From Sorex araneus (Eukaryota > Chordata > Mammalia > Eulipotyphla > Soricidae): a stretch of 64,000 nucleotides of DNA. This document shows positions 9,033 through 63,962 of this stretch, in pieces (position 1 is the first letter of the stretch; each line of letters begins with the position of its first letter). Both the position numbers and the translations under genes were made by a program. The DNA is taken from the NCBI RefSeq assembly GCF_027595985.1, contig NC_073313.1:87855453-87919452 (forward strand), read 5' to 3'. The notes below the pieces were generated by a model. That model worked only from the letters and a program-made list of their open reading frames with translations, did no database searches and had not been told where the DNA came from.

Positions 9033-9202
9033 GGGGCCGGAGTGATAGCACAGCGGGTAGGGTGTTTGCCTTGCACGCGGCAGACCCGGGTTCAATCCCC
9101 GGCATCCCATATGGTCCCCCAAGTACTGCCAGGAGTAATTCCTGAGTGCAAAGCCAGGAGTAACCCCTGAGCATCACTGAGTGTGAACCAAAAAGCAAAA
9201 AA
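9033..9202 (+). mobile_element. SINE type A
   Basis: Complete copy from GGGGCCGGAGTGATAGCACA to the A tail. The TSD AAATGTAA(C/A)TTATTCA lies at 9017-9032 and 9203-9218, 15 of 16 bases matching. Confidence 0.94.
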
Positions 9203-13417: not shown

Positions 13418-13619
13418 GACTGGAGGGATAGCACAGAGGGTAGTGCATTTTCCTTGCACGTGGCCGAACCAGGTTTGATTCCTCCATCTCTCTTGGAGAG
13501 CCTGGCAAGCTACCGTGGCGTATTTGATATGCCAAAAACAGTAACAACAAATCTCACAATAGAGATGTTACTGCTGCCCGCTCGAGGAAATCGATGAACA
13601 ATGGGATGACAATGCTACA
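13418..13619 (+). mobile_element. SINE type B (RTE-tailed), internally shortened
   Basis: tRNA-like head, type B body missing about 40 bp in its middle, and the RTE-like 3' tail GCCCGCTCGAGGAAATCGAT. The TSD TACCCTCCACA lies at 13407-13417 and 13620-13630. There is no poly(A) tail. Confidence 0.92.
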
Positions 13620-14325: not shown

Positions 14326-14359
14326 ATTAGACATATATGGAAAGCATATCTAAATTGAG

Positions 14360-14606
14360 GACTGGAGTGATAGCACAGTGGGTATGGCGTTTGCCTTGCA
14401 TGTGGCCAACCCGGGTTCCATTCCTCCATCCCTCTCGGAGAGCCCAGCAAGCTACCGAGAGTATCCTGCCCACACGGCAGAGCCTGGCGAGCTACCCATG
14501 GTGCATTTGATATGCCAAAAAGAGTAACAAGTCTCACAATGGAGACGTTACTGGTGCTCGCTCGAGCAAATCGATGAGTGACAGGATGACAGTGCTACAG
14601 TGCTAC
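14360..14606 (+). mobile_element. SINE type B
   Basis: Full-length copy: head, CCCTCTCGGAGAGCCCAGC body, and tail ending GACAGTGCTACAGTGCTA. The TSD CTAA(A/G)TTGAG lies at 14350-14359 and 14607-14616. Confidence 0.93.
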
Positions 14607-15025: not shown

Positions 15026-15659
15026 TGGGAAAATAGGAAATCTGGGTGGAAGAGGCCCAGTCCCGATCTGAGCAGGCTTGAAGGTCTCAGCCCCGGGTCC
15101 CACACACCTGGATTCCTCTGCGGGTACCTTCATGCGTGAGGCTCATCCGAACACGTGGAGAGGGGCCTTGAACATGTCTGTGGCTAGGCTCCGGAGGTCT
15201 TCAGCTGCAGGAGCTCTACTAGGGGTAGGGAGGGAAGCTGGAGCCCACCCACTCCGAGGGGAAAGACAGCCAGGCGTGCGGGCAAGAGATGGTCACACCC
15301 AGGGACTGTCCTTGGCGCTGTGTAATCCCACCAACGGCCAACATCCAGAGACTTAAAACAAAGCTCCTGGAAGAGAGTGACGCAGAGAGTCTCTTGCCTG
15401 TGTGCCTGGCTGTCTTCCTCAGGGCCCTTTGGAGGGGATGGGCTCCAGCTTCCCTCCCCGCCCCGAGCAGAGCTCCCTCGGCCGAAGACCTCCGGAGCCT
15501 AGCCACAGCCATGCTCAAGGCCCCTCTCCACACGTTTGGATAATCCTCACGCATGAAGGTATCGGCAGAGGAACCCAGGTGTGTGTGACCCAGGGCTGAG
15601 ACCTCCAAGCCTGCTCGATCGGGACTGGTCCTCTTCCGCCCAGATTTCTCATTTTCCAG
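15026..15659. repeat. Inverted repeat, arms 15026-15289 and 15391-15659
   Basis: The arms are about 265 bp each and roughly 85-88% complementary by eye, around a loop of about 100 bp. The loop sequence (15291-15373, GGTCACACCC to CCTGGAAG) recurs directly after the second arm at 15669-15751, giving the order A-B-inverted A-B. Confidence 0.88.
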
Positions 15660-16039
15660 TAGCTAGGCGGTCACACCCGGGGACTGCCCCCGGTGCCGTG
15701 TAATCCCACCAATGGCCAACATCCAGAGACTTAAAACCAAGCTCCCAGAAGCTTGAAGCTACTCTGCGGCCACCCAACATCTTATAGCCTACTTCTCCCT
15801 CTGGGAGAACCTGGCAAACTACCGAGAGTTTCCTGCCCACATGGGAGGGCCGCGCAAACTCCCCATGGTGTATTCATATGCCAAAACCAGTAAAAATGCT
15901 GGGTCTCATTCCCCTTACCCTGAAAGAGCCACCAATGTGGCATCCTTGGGAAGGATGAGTAAAGAGAGGCTTCTAAAATCTCAGGGCTAGGACGAATGGA
16001 GATGTTACTGAGACCGCTTGAGAAATTGGACGATCAACG

Positions 16040-16040
<1 letters not shown>

Positions 16041-16083
<43 letters not shown>
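16041..16083. repeat. (GAT)n microsatellite, about 14 units
   Basis: Perfect GAT repeat forming the 3' terminus of the RTE-derived element. A simple-repeat end is usual for RTE-clade elements. Confidence 0.97.
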
Positions 16084-16084
<1 letters not shown>

Positions 16085-16719
16085 CCCTAACTTCAGTGAT
16101 TCAGCCCAGAGAAGACTCCAGAATGTTCCAAACCAAGACAACCCAAGAAGAGGCAATAAAACCCAGCCCAAAAGCCCATTCAAAGCTCTCTTCACCCTTG
16201 CAGAAGCCCACGTTCTCTCTTGAGCGTGTTACTCTCTCTCTCTCTCCCTCTTTCTCTCTTTCTCCCTCTCTCTCTTTCATTCTCTCCCCCTCCACACCTT
16301 CAAATACCCTCCAAATAAAATCTGTTTTACTTAACTGCTTGTCTACTCCTGAAATTCTTTCCTTCAAGTGAGACAAGAACCTCAAAAACCCTGGGAAAGG
16401 CCTGGGACTGGTTTCTCCTTTCCTGCAAAAAGCAAATCCTCGCTCCAGCCTGAGTTCATGGCTTCCCGAGAAATCAGGTGGCAAGGATCAACCCCTGTGC
16501 CAAGAAGTCCAAGTGGACTTCAGGTATGACCTGATGGCCACTTTGCGGGACTGGCGGGGCTCAGGCCCATGCCAAGCAGGGGTTCATCACAGACTTTACC
16601 AGTCCTAGTCTTCCCAGCAGGTCCCGGGTCACAGAGGCAGAGTAGGAGAAAGTGACTGTCTTTGCCTCCTCCCGACTCACGTGAGCCACCTGTGGGGTCC
16701 ACTGACATCACTAGCACCT

Positions 16720-30722: not shown

Positions 30723-30734
30723 CAACATTTCCAT

Positions 30735-30977
30735 CACTGTCACTGCCATGCCGTTGCTCATCGATTTGTTCAAGCGGGCACCAGTAATGTCTCTCATTGT
30801 GAGACTTATTGTTACTGTTTTGGGCATATCCAATATGCACGGGTAGCTTACCAGGCTCTGCCGCGCGGGCTCAATACTCTCGGTAGCTTGTCGGGCTCTC
30901 TGAAAGGGGCGGAGGAATCGAACTTGGGTCAGCCATGTGAAAGGCGAATGCCTAACTGCTGTGCTATCTCTCCAGCC
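30735..30977 (-). mobile_element. SINE type B, subfamily B2, antisense
   Basis: Full copy. Perfect TSD CAACATTTCCAT at 30723-30734 and 30978-30989. B2 markers are a head reading GTGAAAGGCGAATGCCTAAC and GAGGAATCGAAC next to GGGGCGG. Confidence 0.94.
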
Positions 30978-30989
30978 CAACATTTCCAT

Positions 30990-31617: not shown

Positions 31618-31864
31618 GCAATAGCACAGCGGGTAGGGCATTTTCCTTGCATGTGGCCAACCCGGGTTTGATTCCTCCATCCCTCTCGGAGGGCCCGGCA
31701 AGCTACTGAAAGTATCCCACCCATACGGCAGAGCCTGGCAAGCTACCCGTGGCATATTCGATATGCCAAAAACAGCAACAAGTCTCACAATGGAGACGTA
31801 CTGGTGCCCGCTTGAGCAAATACATGAACAATGGGATGACAGTGCTACAGTGACAGTGCTACAA
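31618..31864 (+). mobile_element. SINE type B, first bases missing
   Basis: Starts within the head (CAATAGCACAGCGGGTAGGG). Complete body and RTE-like tail with the repeat GACAGTGCTACAGTGACAGT. Confidence 0.9.
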
Positions 31865-32024: not shown

Positions 32025-32433
32025 GGGCTGCAGCGATAGCGCAGTGGCTAGGACGTTTGCCTTGCACGCAGCTGACCCAGGTTCGATTCCTCCAGCTCTC
32101 TTGGAGAGCCTGGCAAGCTACCGAGAGTATCTCGCCTGCATGGCAGAGTCTGGCAAGCTACCCGTGGCATATTCCAATGACTGACTGCCATTCCGTTGCT
32201 CATGGATTTATTCGAGCGGGCACCAGTAACGTCTCTCATTGTGAGACTCATTGTTACTGTTTTTGGCATATCCAATACGCCATGGGTAGCTTGCCAGGCT
32301 CTGCCGTGTGGGTGCGATACTCTCGGTAGCTTGCAGGGCTCTCGGAGAGGGGCGGAGGAATCGAACACGGGTCGGCTGTGTGAAAGGTGAACACCCTACC
32401 ACTGTGATATCGCTCCAGCCCAGACAGTGACAG
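32025..32433. mobile_element. Inverted pair of type B SINEs within one TSD
   Basis: 32025 to about 32174 is the first 150 bp of a sense type B SINE. About 32180-32421 is a complete antisense B2 copy. 32422-32433 (AGACAGTGACAG) looks like the 3' tail of the first. TAGAAATGG flanks the whole block at 32014-32022 and 32434-32442. The shared parts can form a hairpin stem of about 140 bp. Either the second SINE landed in the first with loss of its tail region, or the pair integrated as one event. Confidence 0.85.
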
Positions 32434-33908: not shown

Positions 33909-34156
33909 GGGGCTGGAGCAATAGCACAGTGGGTAGGACATTTGCCTTGCACACGGCCAATCCGGGTTCGATTCCTCCATCCCTCTCGGAGAGGCCGGCA
34001 AGCTACCGAGAGTATTCTGCCCGCACGGCGGAGCCTGGCAAGCTACCTGTGGCATATTTGATATACCAAAAACAGTAACAAGTCTCACAATGGAGACGTT
34101 ACTGGTGCCTGCTCGAGCAACTTGATGAACAACGGGATGACAGTGCTGCAGTGCTA
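33909..34156 (+). mobile_element. SINE type B
   Basis: Full-length copy with TSD TAGTTA(C/T)ACTTCA at 33896-33908 and 34157-34169. It ends directly before a (TTTC)n tract. Confidence 0.94.
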
Positions 34157-34173
34157 TAGTTATACTTCAGATG

Positions 34174-35269: not shown

Positions 35270-35610
35270 GTAGCAGTGTAGCACCTAGAGCTGACTGAGT
35301 TCTTGTATACATGGTATTAATCAACACCTGAAGTCTGAGGAGCTTAGGTAGAGATAAAAACAGTGATTCCACCGTATCACTGTCATCCCATTGCTCATTG
35401 ATTTCCTCAAGTGGGCACCAGTAAAATCTTCATTGTGAGACTTGTTACTGTTTTTGCCATATGGAATATGCCACGGGTAGCTTGCCAGACTCTGCCATGC
35501 GGGCGGGATACTCTCAGTAGCTTGCCAGGCTCTCCTAAAGGGACAGAGGAATCAAACCCGGGTCGTACATGTGCAAGGAAAACGTCATACCTGCTGTGCT
35601 ACTTGAGCCC
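35270..35610 (-). mobile_element. Extended type B SINE with extra 3' segment, copy 1
   Basis: On the minus strand a type B SINE (from about 35610 down to 35377) is followed by about 95 bp not found in other SINEs, then by GTGCTACACTGCTAC, which resembles the usual type B end. The whole is flanked by GAG(G/A)TGGAACT at 35259-35269 and 35611-35621. The same extension occurs at 44143-44240. Confidence 0.85.
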
Positions 35611-35883: not shown

Positions 35884-36985
35884 GGAAAGAAATGAACAGA
35901 TGCTTCCTTTAAAAAAAAAGGAACATAAGCCAATAGACATATGGAAAAAAATGCACTCTGTCACTTATCATCTGGAAAATTCAAATCAAAACAACAAAAC
36001 AAAATATCTTCTCTCACCAGTAATACTGGCACACATCAAAAAGAACAAAAACAACCAGAGCTGGTGTGGTCATGGGGAAAAAAAGAACCCTCATTTATTG
36101 CTGTTGACTATGACAGCTGGTCCCACCTACTTGGAAAACAATATGGACACTTCTTGTAAAGCTACGAATTGAGCTTTCATACCATCCAGCAATTTTCCTT
36201 CTCAGCATGTACCCCAATGTCTCTAAAACACTATTTTGAAAAGACATTTGCACTCCTATGTACACATTTGCAATCCATTTCCAATAGGTCGCTGTCACTG
36301 TCATCCCATTGCTCATCGATTTGTTTGAGCGGGCACCAGTAACGTCTCTCATTGAGAGACTTATTGTTACTGTTTTTGGCATATCCAATATGCATGGGTA
36401 GCTTGCCAGGCTCTGCGGCGCGGGCTCGATACTCTCGGTAGCTTTCCGGGCTCTCCGAGAGGGGCAGAGAAATCAAACTCGGGTTGGCCGCGTGAAAGGC
36501 GAACGCCCAACCGCTGTGCTATCAATCCAATAGGTAAGATCTGCAAACAATCTGAATCTGAGTGTTGAAGAACTGGGTAAATAAGCTTTGGTATATATAC
36601 ATGCAGTGGTATACTATTCTCCTATAAAGAAAAAGGAAATGAAAGTTGTCCTTAGTTGGATGGAAATGGAGGGTATCATGCTGAGTGAAGTCCATCAGAA
36701 GATGCATAATGATCTCTCTCATATGCGGGATATAAAAATAAAACATAATCTGGGAGTGACAAATGGTCAAAGGCAGCAGAACTTTAGAATTGGCCTACAG
36801 AACTAAGCTTACCAAAGGCCGGGGAAGATGGTGGTTAGGAGGAAGCTCTGAGACAGTGGTGGAAGAAAGGACACTCTGGTGGAGGGTGTGGAATTGAAAA
36901 GTGGAATGCATGAAACCCTATCATTAACAGTATTGCAAATACTGCTTTAAAAATTGCTCCCCCCAAAAAAAAGGGAAAGAAAAAA
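35884..36985 (+). mobile_element. Old L1 3' end with ORF2 remnant, carrying a SINE
   Basis: TSD AGAAATGAGTCACTAAG at 35867-35883 and 36986-37002. The first part encodes a decayed ORF2 C-terminal region (MEKNALCHLSSGKFKSKQQN in one frame; WCGHGEKK and TYLENNMD in another). After the SINE come the ORF2 end (MEMEGIMLSEVHQK) and the 3' untranslated region. Frames are shifted. Confidence 0.88.
36290..36526 (-). mobile_element. SINE type B2 nested in the L1, antisense
   Basis: Complete copy with TSD TCCAATAGGT at 36280-36289 and 36527-36536. The B2 head complement GTGAAAGGCGAACGCCCAAC is well preserved. Confidence 0.94.
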
Positions 36986-38480: not shown

Positions 38481-39327
38481 AGTTCTAAGTACATTTTTAA
38501 ATTCACCATTATGGGGCATATTATTCTAGGTGGGGAGTCAGATATACAGTAGTACTAAAACAAGGAGAAAATTTTAAAAATGGTAATTGGCCTGTTTCTA
38601 TCTCTACAGTTTCTCATGTTTATTATTAAGCAGTATTTACTGTGAAGGTTCTCTGAACAAATATTCTAAAACAACAGTCCATGGACCAGTGCTGCTCTGT
38701 CGGTGTGCAAAGGTGTAAAATAACCGGTCATAACTGCTAGTCCATGAAATGGTATGAAGTACAGGTGCAGGTCTGCTCATGTAAAGAGGTTAAAAAATGC
38801 AAGGGTCAATAACTCTCATACAATTAATTGTCTTAGTCCTCTGAAGGTAGCAGGACCAGGTCAGTATGCTCAAACTAAGAGGTGAGCAAAATATTAGCCC
38901 TAATGGTATTTAGTTTCAGGGCCTTTGAACAAGTGGGAGCATAAAAAAATATTTTCACTTACAGGGATGTCTTTACAGAAATGCAGAAGGTATCCTGGAG
39001 CCTTAATTGTAGTCCAATTATTCCCATTCTGCTACCATCTTCATCTTTCTAAATCACTATAAGACTGTTCACCTACATCTACTTGGAAAAATTGAGTTTG
39101 TTCCAATGAGATTGATATGTCTGAGGAAAATTTGAGCATGACATGAATTTTTTTTTGTTTGCTTGAGAATGATTCTTTCATCAAGAAACACTAGGTGAAT
39201 ACAGAAAATTGCACCCAGCTGAAACTATACAGTAATAGTGCACAGACATCAAACATCTACCATTCATTAACATTTGGAATTAGAATTTTCCTTTTGTTTC
39301 AGGTAATACTCTTTTCATTGCTTCACA
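38481..39327. other. Unique AT-rich sequence
   Basis: About 38670-38760 (CAGTCCATGGACCAGTGCTG...AACTGCTAGTCCATGAAATG) faintly resembles an old DNA-transposon remnant. Otherwise nothing seen. Confidence 0.4.
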
Positions 39328-39366
39328 AAAATTTATATTCTACAGTACCTACATGCATCACTTGTA

Positions 39367-39606
39367 TCACTTGTCATACTGTTGATTATCGATTTGCTGG
39401 AGCGGGCTCCATTCCTCCCTCTCGCATGCTAGTGTAGCCCAATGGTATCTGCTCACTCCAGGAACACAAAGAGCCTCAAACCATTCATTCAGGATTTTGA
39501 CGAAAAAGTCTGTCCATCTCATAGGTGGGTGGTCACTCAGTCTTTTCATGTCCTGTGTAATCCAATTGGTAACATCTCTAGTCCAGGGGTCATCTCTAAA
39601 ACGCAT
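39367..39606 (-). pseudogene. RTE C-terminal region (broken ORF)
   Basis: 79 codons with the conserved RTE C-terminal wording: MRFRDDPWTRDVTNWI, DHPPMRWTDFFVK and RYHWATLACEREEW. It continues the protein across a frameshift at about 39606. The family stop and 3' tail follow. The 3' tail (CCCGCTCCAGCAAATCGAT on the minus strand, about 39388-39406) is shared with type B SINEs. Confidence 0.9.
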
Positions 39607-40214
39607 TACGTGTCCCGCCCATCTGATTTTTGATGCCTTGGCAAACGAGACAGTGTCCCTGATTCTTGATCATTGAAGGAGGTCAGAACTCCAGATTCCT
39701 TCTCTCCCTTGAGTGAAACGTGGTACCCCAAGCATAGCTCTTTCCATTCCTCTTTGGGAGAACCGAATAGCATTCTCATCCTGTTTTCATAGACCCAGGT
39801 CTCTGAGGCATATGTTAGTGCAGGAAGAACGGTGGAGTCAAAAAGATGTGCCCTGAGCTGGAGATTCTTCGTCCTCTTAACCACTTCTTCGACGCTCTTG
39901 AAGGCATTACATGCTGCTCTCTTCCTTCTGCGCAGTTCTCGTGCCAAGTTCCTCATGTTGAGTTCTCGACCCAGGTACACATAGCTGTTGCATTCGGAGA
40001 TGATTGTTCCGTTAAGAGCGAATGGAACGTCAGGGACTAGTTTGTTTTTCATGAACGTTGTTTTGGTGAGATTCAGCTGAAGTCTGACCTTTCCACACTC
40101 GCTGTCGAAGTCGGCCAGCATTTGTGCCACTTGGCTAATGTTTGGTGTTATTAGAACGATGTCATCATCGAAGCAGAGGTGGTGTAGATGCTGACCATCT
40201 ATCTTCACTCCCAT
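39606..40214 (-). pseudogene. RTE reverse transcriptase palm and thumb (broken ORF)
   Basis: 202 open codons starting MGVKIDGQHLHHLCFDDDIV. The palm motif reads F-D-D-D where RTE and other non-LTR enzymes normally have F-A-D-D, one substitution beside the two catalytic Asp residues. Further on are LQLNLTKTTFM, YVYLGRELNM, RRRKRAACNAFKS and LPALTYASETWVYENRM. After about residue 150 a short deletion and a frameshift garble the end. The following C-terminal piece is in another frame (39606-39367). Confidence 0.92.
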
Positions 40215-41613
40215 TCCTTCCCATTCCAGTCATCGCATGCCGTTCTTGAGGGTGGCACTAAAGAGTCTCGGTAAAAATGGTATCACCCTGCCGAACCCCT
40301 CTCTTTACGTCAGTGATCACTTCCTTGTAGAATGGTGAGATCCTGATGATGAATCTGTAATACAGCTCATGGAGGATCTTGATGTACTAAATTTGAATGC
40401 CCTGTTTGGCTAGGGCTTCAATGACTGCTTCAATCTCAACAGAATCAAAGGCCTTATTTAAATCGATGAAAATTATACAGAGCAGCATTTTGAACTCTCG
40501 CGAAACTTCAATGAGCTTGGTCACCATGTATATATGGTTGATTGTGCTGAATCCTTTTCAGAACCCAGCTTGCTCACATGGTTATCTAGTGTTCTTCCTA
40601 TTCTCTTCAGGATGACTCGAGTGAACAACTTGTAGACGACGGACAACAGGCAGATTGGGTGATAGTTGCCGATGTCGTGGATGTCTCCCTTCAACAGTAC
40701 AGTCCTGCTGTTTTTCCATCAGGACGGAACCTTGCATTCAGACAGGTAGCGTGTGAAGAGCTGAGCCAGTGTATTGATGAGTACTGGAGGCAGATTCTTC
40801 AGGTGATCGGATCTGACCTTGTCTGGCCTGGGTGCTGTACACGTCTTTACCTACAAAATAACATGTTGGATTTCAGAAGGGAGGACATTGGGAATGACAT
40901 ATCATCCATCCTGCGGAATTTGGTATGTGGCTAGGTGGACATGGCTGTCGAAGAGATCCGAATAGAAATTGTAAATAATCCTCTCCATTGCCCTTCTGGA
41001 AGATGTAATAGATCCATCAGGATGTTGGAGGGCAGTCATCTTGGTCTTGTAGTTGGCGAAGGACAGGCGAGCATTGCAAATACTTTTCCTAGCTTCTGTT
41101 ACATTGGCCACACTGCTACTCTTCTCTCTTTGAGGACTTCCTTAATCGCTTCTCTGCACAGCTTTGGAATCCCAGATGTTAGCTTGTGGTTGCCTAAGGC
41201 TCATGCCAAACCACGTTGACGAATGAGCTCGAGAGTTTCTGAAGACAGGTGTCTATATGTGGTTTTCTCACTTTCGGCATTCTTAGCACAGTCAGGAGGT
41301 GCTGAACCAGTAGATTGTATTCCTCATCGATGTTGTCAACGATGGCATCTTCTCACGTTGCCGCAATAGTGCCTAAGAGCTCCCAGTTGGTGGTCATTCT
41401 GGGAGTTCTCTTCTTAAACTTAAACTTTGCAGACCGTTCTCCCCGCTATGTGAAGTAGAATTTTGCATGAAGGAGATGGTGGCCCAATCCAGTTTGGAAT
41501 TTTGGGACAACAGTGACATTGGTCAGGCAAAACCTTCGATTGAATATGATATGGTCAATGTCATTGCGGAACTGTCCACCGGGAGACTCCCATGTTCATG
41601 TCCAACATTTAGA
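40215..41613 (-). pseudogene. RTE linker and N-terminal reverse transcriptase (decayed)
   Basis: No long frame survives, but the family order can be followed: an end-of-nuclease piece, then a recognisable 70-codon stretch at 41111-40902 (MANVTEARKSICNAR, RRAMERIIYNFYSDLFDSHV), then KPDKVRSDHLKNLPPVLINT-like text and LCIIFIDLNKAFDSVEIEAV (the first RT Asp region) at about 40480-40430. GVRQGDTI at about 40280 is followed by a one-base shift, and a stop lies at about 40235. Confidence 0.85.
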
Positions 41614-42273
41614 TTAGGCCTTCTGGAACTGTGAGTTACCATGGATAGCCTTGGTCGACATGATGAACTCAGACAGTCTCTCAACCTTTTTGTTCCATTC
41701 TAGGCCATGGGTCCCAATGTGGAGTTCTTCAGGCAACCTTCTTGGTCCTATCTTGGCATTAAAATCACCAACAATGATCTTGTAGAAGGTGTGGTCTTCT
41801 TTATACAACTTCTCCAGCTCCATGTAGAAATTCTCAATTTCTCCTCCATCATAGTTGGATGTTGGTGTGTAGACGATGAAGATAGAAACTGCCGGCAGTG
41901 AGCCACATCTATACAAGCGTAATCGTCTGATTAGGTTTGTTAGGCATTCAAATGAATCAATGCTCATGGCCAAGTTCATGTTGACAAGGACACCAACACC
42001 AACACCACTGTCACCTCTGTTGTTGCATGTTCCGAGGAACAGTTCTTCTCCAGTGTCAAAAATGGCATAATGTGATAGATGCCTTCTCATTTCAGTCAGA
42101 CCAATGACGTCGTACTTGATCTTCTGTGCTTGCACCATCAGGTCTTCGATGGATGCTTCCGATGCCAGCATATGTGCGTTGAAAGTACAGACAGTCATTT
42201 TAGTTCTTTGTTTTGGCAGTCTAGTTTGTCCCCGAGATTTTATCAGCCTCTCCTTGCTCATCCTTCTTAACAC
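41614..42273 (-). pseudogene. RTE endonuclease domain (broken ORF, N-terminal part)
   Basis: An open stretch of 219 codons. Endonuclease motifs in order: MTVCTFNAH near residue 26, VIGLTEMRRHL (the Glu ligand) near residue 56, VYTPTSNYDG near residue 134, and VGDFNAKIG (Asp and Asn of the active site) near residue 167. It then continues to HGLEWNKKVERLSEFI and a stop after NSQFQK. Past the stop the frame reads on to PKFQTG-LGHH-LLHA at about 41510, where the family has the catalytic S-D-H motif. Here the Asp is replaced by Gly and the Ser by Leu, so the nuclease site is lost. In the intact family this domain nicks target DNA to start reverse transcription. Confidence 0.92.
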
Positions 42274-42806
42274 TCCCGTACGGGGGGCTCTTTCAGTCTT
42301 AGGCCGATTAAGCCCATTGTTGTCACTGTTTTTGGCATATCAAATATGCCATGGGTGGCTTGCCAGGCTCTGCCGTGTGGTTGGGGTACTCTCGGTAGAT
42401 TGCCGGGCTCTCCGAGAGGGATGGAGGCTTTTAGGGCGCCCTCCAATTGCCCTAATAGGTTTTCCCATGATTCACACCATATTTGAACCTCATCAAATAT
42501 GGTGTGGAAATTATTGAAAATGGGTATTAAGTGTCTTATGGTGTGTACAGAAAGCGGCCAGGAGCGTGGCAGTGGCTGGGTAGTGGAGGTTAGCTGGTGA
42601 GGTGTTTATCTGGCACCGGTAGGGTGGGGTGTCTGGGTTTGATCCTTGGGGCACTGGAGATTGGAGGAGGCAGGCAGAGGATCTTGTTTCTGGGTCCTGT
42701 TGAGCCTGGAGTCCAAGGTCGCAAAGTTCTGCTTTACCTGGTTCTGTGGGGCTTCACTTATGTGTGAGGTTTGACCCGAGTGTCCGGAAAGCTGGCTGGA
42801 GTGTGG
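42274..42806 (-). other. RTE 5' region, partly shared with the type B SINE body
   Basis: Minus strand: about 380 bp of sequence unique in this window, then 42427-42316, which matches the type B SINE middle (CCATCCCTCTCGGAGAGCCC, then CACGGCAGAGCCTGGCAAGC and GATATGCCAAAAACAGTGAC), then the coding start region. The TSD outside 42806 shows that this region belongs to the element. A GGGTTTGATCC word at about 42635 on the plus strand resembles a tRNA box B, but in the opposite orientation to the element. Confidence 0.8.
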
Positions 42807-43023
42807 AAAATTTATATTCTACAGTGTCTACATCCATAAACTAGCTTTACTTTTGCTTAAGGTAAAGTATTAAATTTGTTGTAGCCTGTCTGTATTTCTT
42901 AATAATTTACTTGTATAAAACTGTGCTGGTATAAACTAACTTTAGTTTTGTTCAAGGCAAAGTGTTAAGTTTGTTGTAGTATGTCTGTATTTTTTAATAA
43001 TTAACTTGTATATAACTGTGCTG

Positions 43024-44142: not shown

Positions 44143-44475
44143 CATCTAGAGCTGAGTGAGTTCTTTGTATACATGGTATTAATCAACACCAGAAGTCTGA
44201 GGAGCTTAGGTAGAGATAAAAACAAAGTGATTCCACCATATCACTGTCATCCTGTTGCTCATTGATTTGCTCGAGTGGGCACCAGTCACGACTTCATTGT
44301 AAGACTTGTTACTGTTTTTGGCATATTAATATGCCACGGGTAGCTTGCCAGGCTCTGCTGTGCGGGTGAGATACTCTCAGTAGCTTGCTGGGTTCTCTGA
44401 GATAGGCAGAAGAATCGAACCCAGGTCAGCCGTGTGAAAGGCAAATGTCCTATCCGCTGTGCTATCACTCCAAGC
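44143..44475 (-). mobile_element. Extended type B SINE, copy 2
   Basis: The same SINE plus about 95-bp extension as 35270-35610, roughly 93% alike by eye over the extension, including the shared shortening near ACTTCATTGT(A/G)AGACTTG. I see no clear TSD. Confidence 0.85.
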
Positions 44476-44697
44476 CAAAGTGATTTCATGTTATTGAATT
44501 CTATCAGTGGAGGAAATAAGTTGTATTTATCTACAATTCTTTAGGATTCAGCTATTGAATTTAAAAGGTGCAATTGTGATTATAGTTTCTACTTATGAAA
44601 TAGGCATTGACCCATTTCTTTTACTAAATACTGTTCTTGCCTTTAAACAAGGCTCAGTAATGTTTCTCTATATCTTTGCATTAATAATGAACACATA

Positions 44698-63710: not shown

Positions 63711-63962
63711 AGGACATGAGTGATAGCACAGCAGGAGGGGCATTTGCCTTGCACTTGGCCGACCCGGATTCGATTCCTTCATCCCTTTCTGAGAGTCTGG
63801 CAAGCTACCGAGAGTATCCCACCTGCACAGTAGAGCCTGGTAAGCTACCCATGGCGTATTCAATCTGCCAAAAGCAGTAACAACAAGTCTCACAATGGAG
63901 CCATTACCGATGCCCACTTGAGCAAATCGATGAATAACGGGATGACAGTGCTACAGTGCTAA
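63711..63962 (+). mobile_element. SINE type B
   Basis: Full copy with slightly changed head (AGTGATAGCACAGCAGGAGG), body, and tail GACAGTGCTACAGTGCTAA. TSD AGATATTTAA at 63700-63709 and 63963-63972. Confidence 0.93.

Follow-up and report, generated by a model that had tools for sequence, protein, structure and literature searches.

The type B SINE of the shrew Sorex araneus joins a tRNA-like head to two separate pieces of an RTE retrotransposon, one from inside its 5′ UTR and one from its 3′ end, and is best explained as a bipartite RTE-tailed SINE (Sor head, RTE 5′ UTR body, RTE 3′ tail) that is copied by the RTE in trans (probability roughly 0.9). Since the SINE links a tRNA-like promoter to both ends of the RTE, a parasite-type element, whose nearest kin beyond shrews are in parasitic nematodes, probably supplied the copying machinery for this mammalian repeat. 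The window, a stretch of 64,000 nucleotides (C12:87855453-87919452), was analysed together with searches of the whole genome (2.406 Gb, 65 contigs).

The RTE copy of the window and its relatives

A near full-length, broken RTE copy contains both pieces found in the SINE and lies between repeats resembling target-site duplications:

39359..42806, minus strand: near full-length, broken RTE copy with 5′ UTR, endonuclease, reverse transcriptase and terminal repeat, and TSD-like repeats on both sides
42807..42837, minus strand: target-site repeat on the RTE 5′ side, 28/31 identical to 39328-39358
39328..39358, minus strand: target-site repeat on the RTE 3′ side, pairing with 42807..42837
42317..42427, minus strand: block of the RTE 5′ UTR equivalent to the type B body (SINE 65-175; 102/111 against the type B consensus, E 6e-43)
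39357..39411, minus strand: RTE 3′ end (C-terminal end of the ORF plus terminal repeat) equivalent to the type B tail (SINE 197-249; 47/55, E 5e-12)

The reading frames of this copy are interrupted by many stops. In the endonuclease piece, Exo_endo_phos scores above the curated Pfam cut-off, the reverse transcriptase is represented by two RVT_1 pieces (E 5e-6 and 8.5e-4, both below the Pfam cut-off), and the C-terminal piece matched no Pfam family. Frame 39669-39370 terminates within the 3′ piece common to RTE and SINE, which makes most of the SINE tail coding sequence from the end of the RTE ORF. About 12 bp near the 3′ end are missing from the window copy, letters being present there in 24/24 other aligned RTE copies; the shared 3′ part is therefore longer than first stated and covers ~68 bp (SINE ~183-250) across RTE copies, including the terminal GATACAAGTGATAC-type repeat. 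The first-pass annotation had already recognised both shared pieces, at 42316-42427 and 39352-39410; the limits of the former are corrected to 42427-42317, and the RTE itself ends at ~39359, where the target-site repeat starts. As regards an HDV-like ribozyme in the 5′ UTR, no Rfam ribozyme matched within 39300-42860 (sole match a lncRNA, E 3.2), although Rfam may lack a diverged form.

The 5′ UTR contains tandem, monomer-like repeats, part of it recurring upstream of its own start in four copies (L008, L055, L056 and L058), and a 5′ UTR query found second matches of this type at several places. These repeats recall the monomers of rodent L1. In six copies (L041, L042, L043, L050, L052 and L057) the 5′ part is inverted relative to the 3′ part, with the inversion starting at or near the element 5′ end, as twin priming would give.

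A search with the endonuclease piece found 572 similar proteins. Among the 120 listed, Sorex araneus ranks first (82% identity) and Sorex fumeus eighth (80%), these being the two most identical matches; apart from five unnamed entries, all others listed are from strongylid nematodes (Haemonchus, Necator, Ancylostoma, Angiostrongylus, Heligmosomoides and Nippostrongylus; 59-75%). With its nearest listed proteins in Sorex and strongylids, the window RTE is most likely the published RTE1_Sar, an assignment made via these protein relatives. For RTE1_Sar, horizontal transfer between strongylids and shrew has been reported, with a nematode origin thought likely and the direction unsettled (Dunemann and Wasmuth 2019, PMC6542046); neither SINE nor UTR occurs as a word in the main text of that article. 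The view of the first-pass annotation that the RTE was horizontally acquired agrees with the endonuclease matches and with this published case, the direction of transfer being one that we infer. Among viral contigs, neither a relative of the endonuclease piece nor a match to either of two DNA patterns was found.

Composition of type B and of its headless and internally deleted relatives

A type B model built from ten window copies recovered 25 full-length copies, 11 from the window and 14 from loci outside it (one locus match inside the window was dropped), and these gave a consensus of 250 bp. Head and block are both present in 12 window copies, which include the four named as type B by the first-pass annotation (the first four below):

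14359..14605, plus strand: type B SINE (E 2.9e-82)
33910..34157, plus strand: type B SINE; imperfect flanking repeat AGTTAyACTTCAG, read by eye
31618..31855, plus strand: type B SINE
63712..63961, plus strand: type B SINE; flanking repeat AGATATTTAA
58784..59026, plus strand: type B SINE; CCTCCGCC at the body start, flanking repeat ACTGTTTCTCTG
13418..13619, plus strand: type B SINE, internally deleted; flanking repeat TACCCTCCACA
30732..30978, minus strand: type B SINE; flanking repeat ATGGAAATGTTG
32172..32421, minus strand: type B SINE, abutting 32025-32176
32025..32176, plus strand: type B SINE without the 3′ part
35366..35603, minus strand: type B SINE
36284..36530, minus strand: type B SINE; flanking repeat ACCTATTG
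44230..44476, minus strand: type B SINE; flanking repeat AATCACTTTG

Aligned with the window RTE, the type B consensus matches in two separate, colinear blocks, the next matches having only E 4.4. This bears out the plan put forward in the first-pass annotation (tRNA-like head, RTE 5′ piece, RTE 3′ piece), for which such an alignment had been the proposed check. As in bipartite RTE-mobilised SINEs, the partner RTE supplies the body from its 5′ UTR and shares its 3′ end with the SINE, a tandem-repeat tail replacing poly(A). Between the two blocks lies a linker of 6-9 nt, GTCTCA(C), which is an inverted repeat of the following GAGAC and has no clear RTE source. Translation of two SINE tails gave WRRYWCLLEQLDEQRDD in one and, in one frame of the other, WRRYWCSLEQIDE, a stop and QDD. 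Tail letters of type B (e.g. GATGAGCAA for GAAGATCAA) differ from nearly all sampled RTE copies, the sample comprising copies other than the window copy and L065. L065, which also has an altered stretch near its 3′ end, is the only one of the 24 other RTE copies with the SINE letters GATGAGCAA, and is possibly nearer to the source subfamily of type B.

Over its first 66 bp, type B agrees with the type A (Sor-like) consensus at 65/66 positions, with homology ending at GATTCC. The type A consensus includes a published shrew SINE primer sequence (primer table, PMC8608897). Compared with the Sor SINE of shrews (named in PMC11240701), type B has the type A head, but its body differs, homology stopping after the 66-bp head, and the A-rich tail is absent. 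ARAGORN predicts a tRNA-like fold at 7-78 of the type B consensus, reaching partly into the body. The consensus head contains box A (TAGCACAGCGGG) and box B (GGTTCGATTCC), in keeping with the pol III promoter head, of tRNA, 5S or 7SL kind, expected in bipartite RTE-mobilised SINEs. The Rfam tRNA model matched at one window place only, 9039-9109, just above threshold (29.5 bits vs 29); it overlaps a SINE head and is the only Rfam match at the gathering threshold in the window.

Outside the SINE copies, the block recurs in the window in one RTE derivative, at 15796, among 13 further places in total (E ≤ 1e-3; the other 12 are the type B SINEs). When one window copy was used as query, 40/40 scored places (of 7123 first-look candidates) covered nearly all of the query, with 88-92% identity besides the query itself. 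Type B is abundant, as the first-pass annotation had stated in counting it among the most abundant SINEs, but ranks below type A: the 67 loci retrieved by RTE and derivative queries (225,545 bases) hold 75 type A matches and only 13 type B copies that have both head and block. Extrapolated to the genome, the latter density gives a rough figure of ~100,000 type B copies, as an order of magnitude.

Some elements have the RTE pieces joined as in type B without the tRNA head. L053 begins with RTE 5′ UTR, taken up close to the start of that UTR, and continues through the block into a join and a tail that are both of SINE type, with TGTCATTT after the tail and again ~10-15 bp upstream of the element. 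A query bridging the join spanned it at 4/40 scored places, L053 (the query) included; the other 36 matches end at query 282-289, the end of the block, as expected of RTE copies (judged as a group, not singly). The three further elements, L081, L082 and L083, all have the SINE-type join (with a small change in L082); L081 and L083 keep most of the RTE 5′ UTR and L082 only from its second half onwards. We lean towards reading these four as later chimeras, arisen through switches of template between RNAs of the RTE and of type B within the shared block, rather than as precursors of type B. Two type B tail variants occur among them (CAGTGA in L053 and L082, CAGTGCTACAG in L081 and L083), L082 shares the CCTCCGCCCC block variant with some SINE copies, and the single letter in the block diagnostic of RTE or SINE has the RTE state in L053 and L081 and the SINE state in L082 and L083. 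However, only four copies and this one letter, itself unfixed (RTE 12/15, SINE 15/17), are involved, and parallel old headless lineages would appear similar.

Internal deletion has also generated RTE derivatives of another kind, among them a family represented in the window:

15382..16085, plus strand: internally deleted, non-autonomous RTE derivative with ~410 bp of its own 5′ part, a block-homologous 5′ UTR piece, the RTE 3′ end and (GAT)n

This family (~660 bp) is abundant, 40/40 places being scored at ≥88%. Its block-homologous region is followed by ~90 bp more of RTE 5′ UTR and then by the RTE 3′ end, and its version of the block is diverged (84% against the SINE consensus over 102 bp; 73% against the window RTE over 192 bp). 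Similarity of its 5′ part to the window RTE 5′ UTR was not detected. The idea that the 410-bp head marks another autonomous RTE was dropped, as both places fetched (2/2, of 40 scored) are the same derivative. L040 and L058 are further internal-deletion RTE derivatives.

Tails, target sites and the place of the block in the RTE

A run of 8 A within 40 bp past the tail was found in 0/28 type B copies, in line with the poly(A)-less tails that the first-pass annotation had proposed to check; by a like test, 26/86 type A copies have an A-run and 60/86 do not. Target-site duplications are evident as an excess of exact flanking repeats of at least 8 bp (13/28 type B copies vs 3.8% of mispaired controls), with 15/28 copies falling below 8 bp (type B median 7, control mean 5.3). 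Non-CpG K2P distances to the consensus are 0.030-0.112 for type B (mean 0.077, n=27), 0.041-0.081 for the RTE 3′ piece (mean 0.057, n=20) and 0.038-0.095 for the RTE 5′ piece (mean 0.063, n=22), the RTE copies having been chosen by similarity to the window copy and being biased young, and 0.041-0.554 for type A (median 0.156, n=88). The overlapping ranges indicate one limited span common to type B and the RTE, with type A extending further back.

These data make it very improbable that type B is copied by L1 and that its RTE sequence is only hitch-hiking. Such a reading would suit the head, which type B shares with the A-tailed type A SINE, presumably copied by L1, and the 15/28 copies without a clear flanking repeat by the exact test; but type B tails lack A-runs and consist of RTE-type tandem repeats, and in divergence type B overlaps the RTE rather than showing the wide span of type A.

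The block itself is part of the RTE. A query of RTE 5′ UTR upstream of the block, with the block excluded, retrieved 19 loci besides the window, and in 15 of these (L041, L043-L051 and L054-L058) the RTE alignment passes through the block into the sequence beyond, including L045 and L049, which have a deletion within the block. In the remaining four, the alignment breaks inside the block at inversions (L042 and L052), the block is whole within a headless bipartite element (L053), or an internal deletion begins before the block (L040); flanks joined without the block were seen in none of the 19. Because the block is flanked by RTE in 15/19 loci and the flanks are never joined without it, it belongs to the RTE. 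The block query retrieved two further RTE copies, L004 and L008. Three of the 15 (L047, L051 and L054; C1:449.0-449.7 Mb) have a common block variant and nearly identical upstream flank and look like segmental duplicates of each other, and are therefore not independent.

RTE copies without the block had been named in the first-pass annotation as the sign of a SINE inserted in an RTE, and the contiguity of the block with both flanks in 15/19 loci, against 0/19 with joined flanks, speaks the other way. That homology runs from SINE to RTE, through a SINE fragment inserted in the window copy or in an RTE ancestor, is likewise very improbable, with only a few chances in a hundred: the block does begin at the very position where the SINE head stops, and type B copies are numerous, but no SINE head or SINE-type tail adjoins the block in the aligned RTE copies, the 15382-16085 derivative has a diverged block followed by further RTE 5′ UTR, and an insertion would not explain why the SINE tail is the RTE 3′ end. 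An insertion confined to the window copy is refuted by the other RTE copies with the block.

The block contains a 17-nt motif twice and holds a largely kept hairpin, the named structure pairing 89.5% of cells (a value reached by 21/500 shuffles; slid versions 24-39%). Folding z-scores are -2.74 for the single block sequence, -1.8 to -2.0 for consensus blocks (RNAalifold energy -0.63) and -2.46 for the whole SINE, and folding of the 3′ tail by itself is unremarkable (z -0.65). The covariation score of the block structure was reached by 67/500 shuffles and the number of pairs with two-sided changes by 439/500. Conserved RNA folding of the block is not claimed, since the covariation test gave no support and decay of paired CpG can mimic compensation.

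Proposed mobilisation, counterparts and significance

Preferring the bipartite, RTE-tailed origin of type B, we infer an order of events, mobilisation in trans by the RTE enzyme and a set of recognition signals. The 5′ 66 bp would be the tRNA-like pol III promoter of a resident Sor-type SINE, the body ~110 bp from inside the 5′ UTR of the RTE with nematode affinity, and the tail the last ~68 bp of the same RTE (ORF end plus terminal tandem repeat). Most probably, the Sor head was gained by an internally deleted, non-autonomous RTE RNA, either through template switching or through recombination, at a CC overlap. Pol III would transcribe type B from the Sor head, and the RTE reverse transcriptase would copy the RNA in trans, recognising the RTE 3′ end instead of poly(A); copying into the nicked target would then give target-site duplications and short tandem-repeat tails. 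The RTE would accordingly be the likely engine of type B, as the first-pass annotation had suggested. For SINEs that share a LINE tail, the LINE enzyme is held to recognise that tail (PMC3747384 and PMC7245038, in the text accessible to us).

The block stands behind at least three different 5′ parts in the genome: the RTE promoter region, the Sor tRNA head and the 410-bp head of the 15382-16085 family. A more speculative suggestion, which we regard as rather doubtful, is that the ~110-bp block is a modular domain of the RTE for head-swapping and recognition, the headless elements then being examples of switching at the RNA level within it. R2-type elements have a 5′ protein-binding RNA, and by analogy the block could act in a similar way; a recognition domain of this kind would account for the retention of a 5′ piece besides the 3′ tail in RTE SINEs.

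The plan of composition is already known from Bov-tA, the AviRTE SINEs and hagfish SINEs. Bov-tA also includes an RTE 5′ part, Bov-A2 is a headless relative, and the Bov-B RTE was horizontally acquired. Bov-tA and Bov-A2 of ruminants, listed with Bov-B in a table of PMC3747384, likewise combine a tRNA head with an RTE 3′ end, although RTE family and host differ from those of type B, which would have originated independently. The first-pass annotation rightly compared type B with Bov-tA and BovB, but birds provide the nearest precedent, in the form of the AviRTE SINEs (Suh et al. 2016; accessible text of PMC4844689). There, too, an RTE is shared through horizontal transfer between nematodes and a vertebrate, and the SINEs have a bipartite tail combining parts of the RTE 5′ and 3′ UTRs, in some cases together with a tRNA head. 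AviRTE is a different RTE, of filarial nematodes and birds, whereas the shrew case involves a mammal and a strongylid-type RTE; type B also differs in using a resident SINE head and in drawing most of its tail from the ORF end. Hagfish SINE1-1_EBu and its relatives (accessible text of PMC7245038) again have a bipartite RTE-derived 3′ part with differing heads, and internal-deletion RTE derivatives were proposed there as the first step; their heads are 7SL or other tRNA, the RTE is another one, and horizontal transfer is not claimed. RTE1_Sar as published (PMC6542046, in the text seen) is likewise a Sorex RTE with strongylid relatives.

No account of a SINE built from RTE1_Sar was found among the papers listed by full-text searching, a scope outside which Repbase and most subscription papers lie. 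No shrew pair appears in the accessible part of Table 1 of PMC3747384, nor is there any mention of shrew, Sorex or SAr in the text of that paper; no such SINE is described in the accessible text of PMC5322556, PMC7716205, PMC11544316, PMC4476161, PMC6009670, PMC13295347, PMC8384839, PMC12026660 or PMC3183009.

We rate two aspects of type B as of special interest, the nematode link and the finding that one head goes with an A-tail in type A and with an RTE tail in type B. Because both combinations are present within a single genome, they allow a direct test of how the tail influences the choice of partner. The headless and internally deleted relatives provide material on how RTE-tailed SINEs assemble. 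Type B is a mammalian case in which a horizontally transferred RTE shared with nematodes has also given rise to an abundant SINE, in parallel to the AviRTE of birds and nematodes. If the proposed model is true, type B is no older than the arrival of the RTE, and its insertions can therefore help to date the transfer within shrews.
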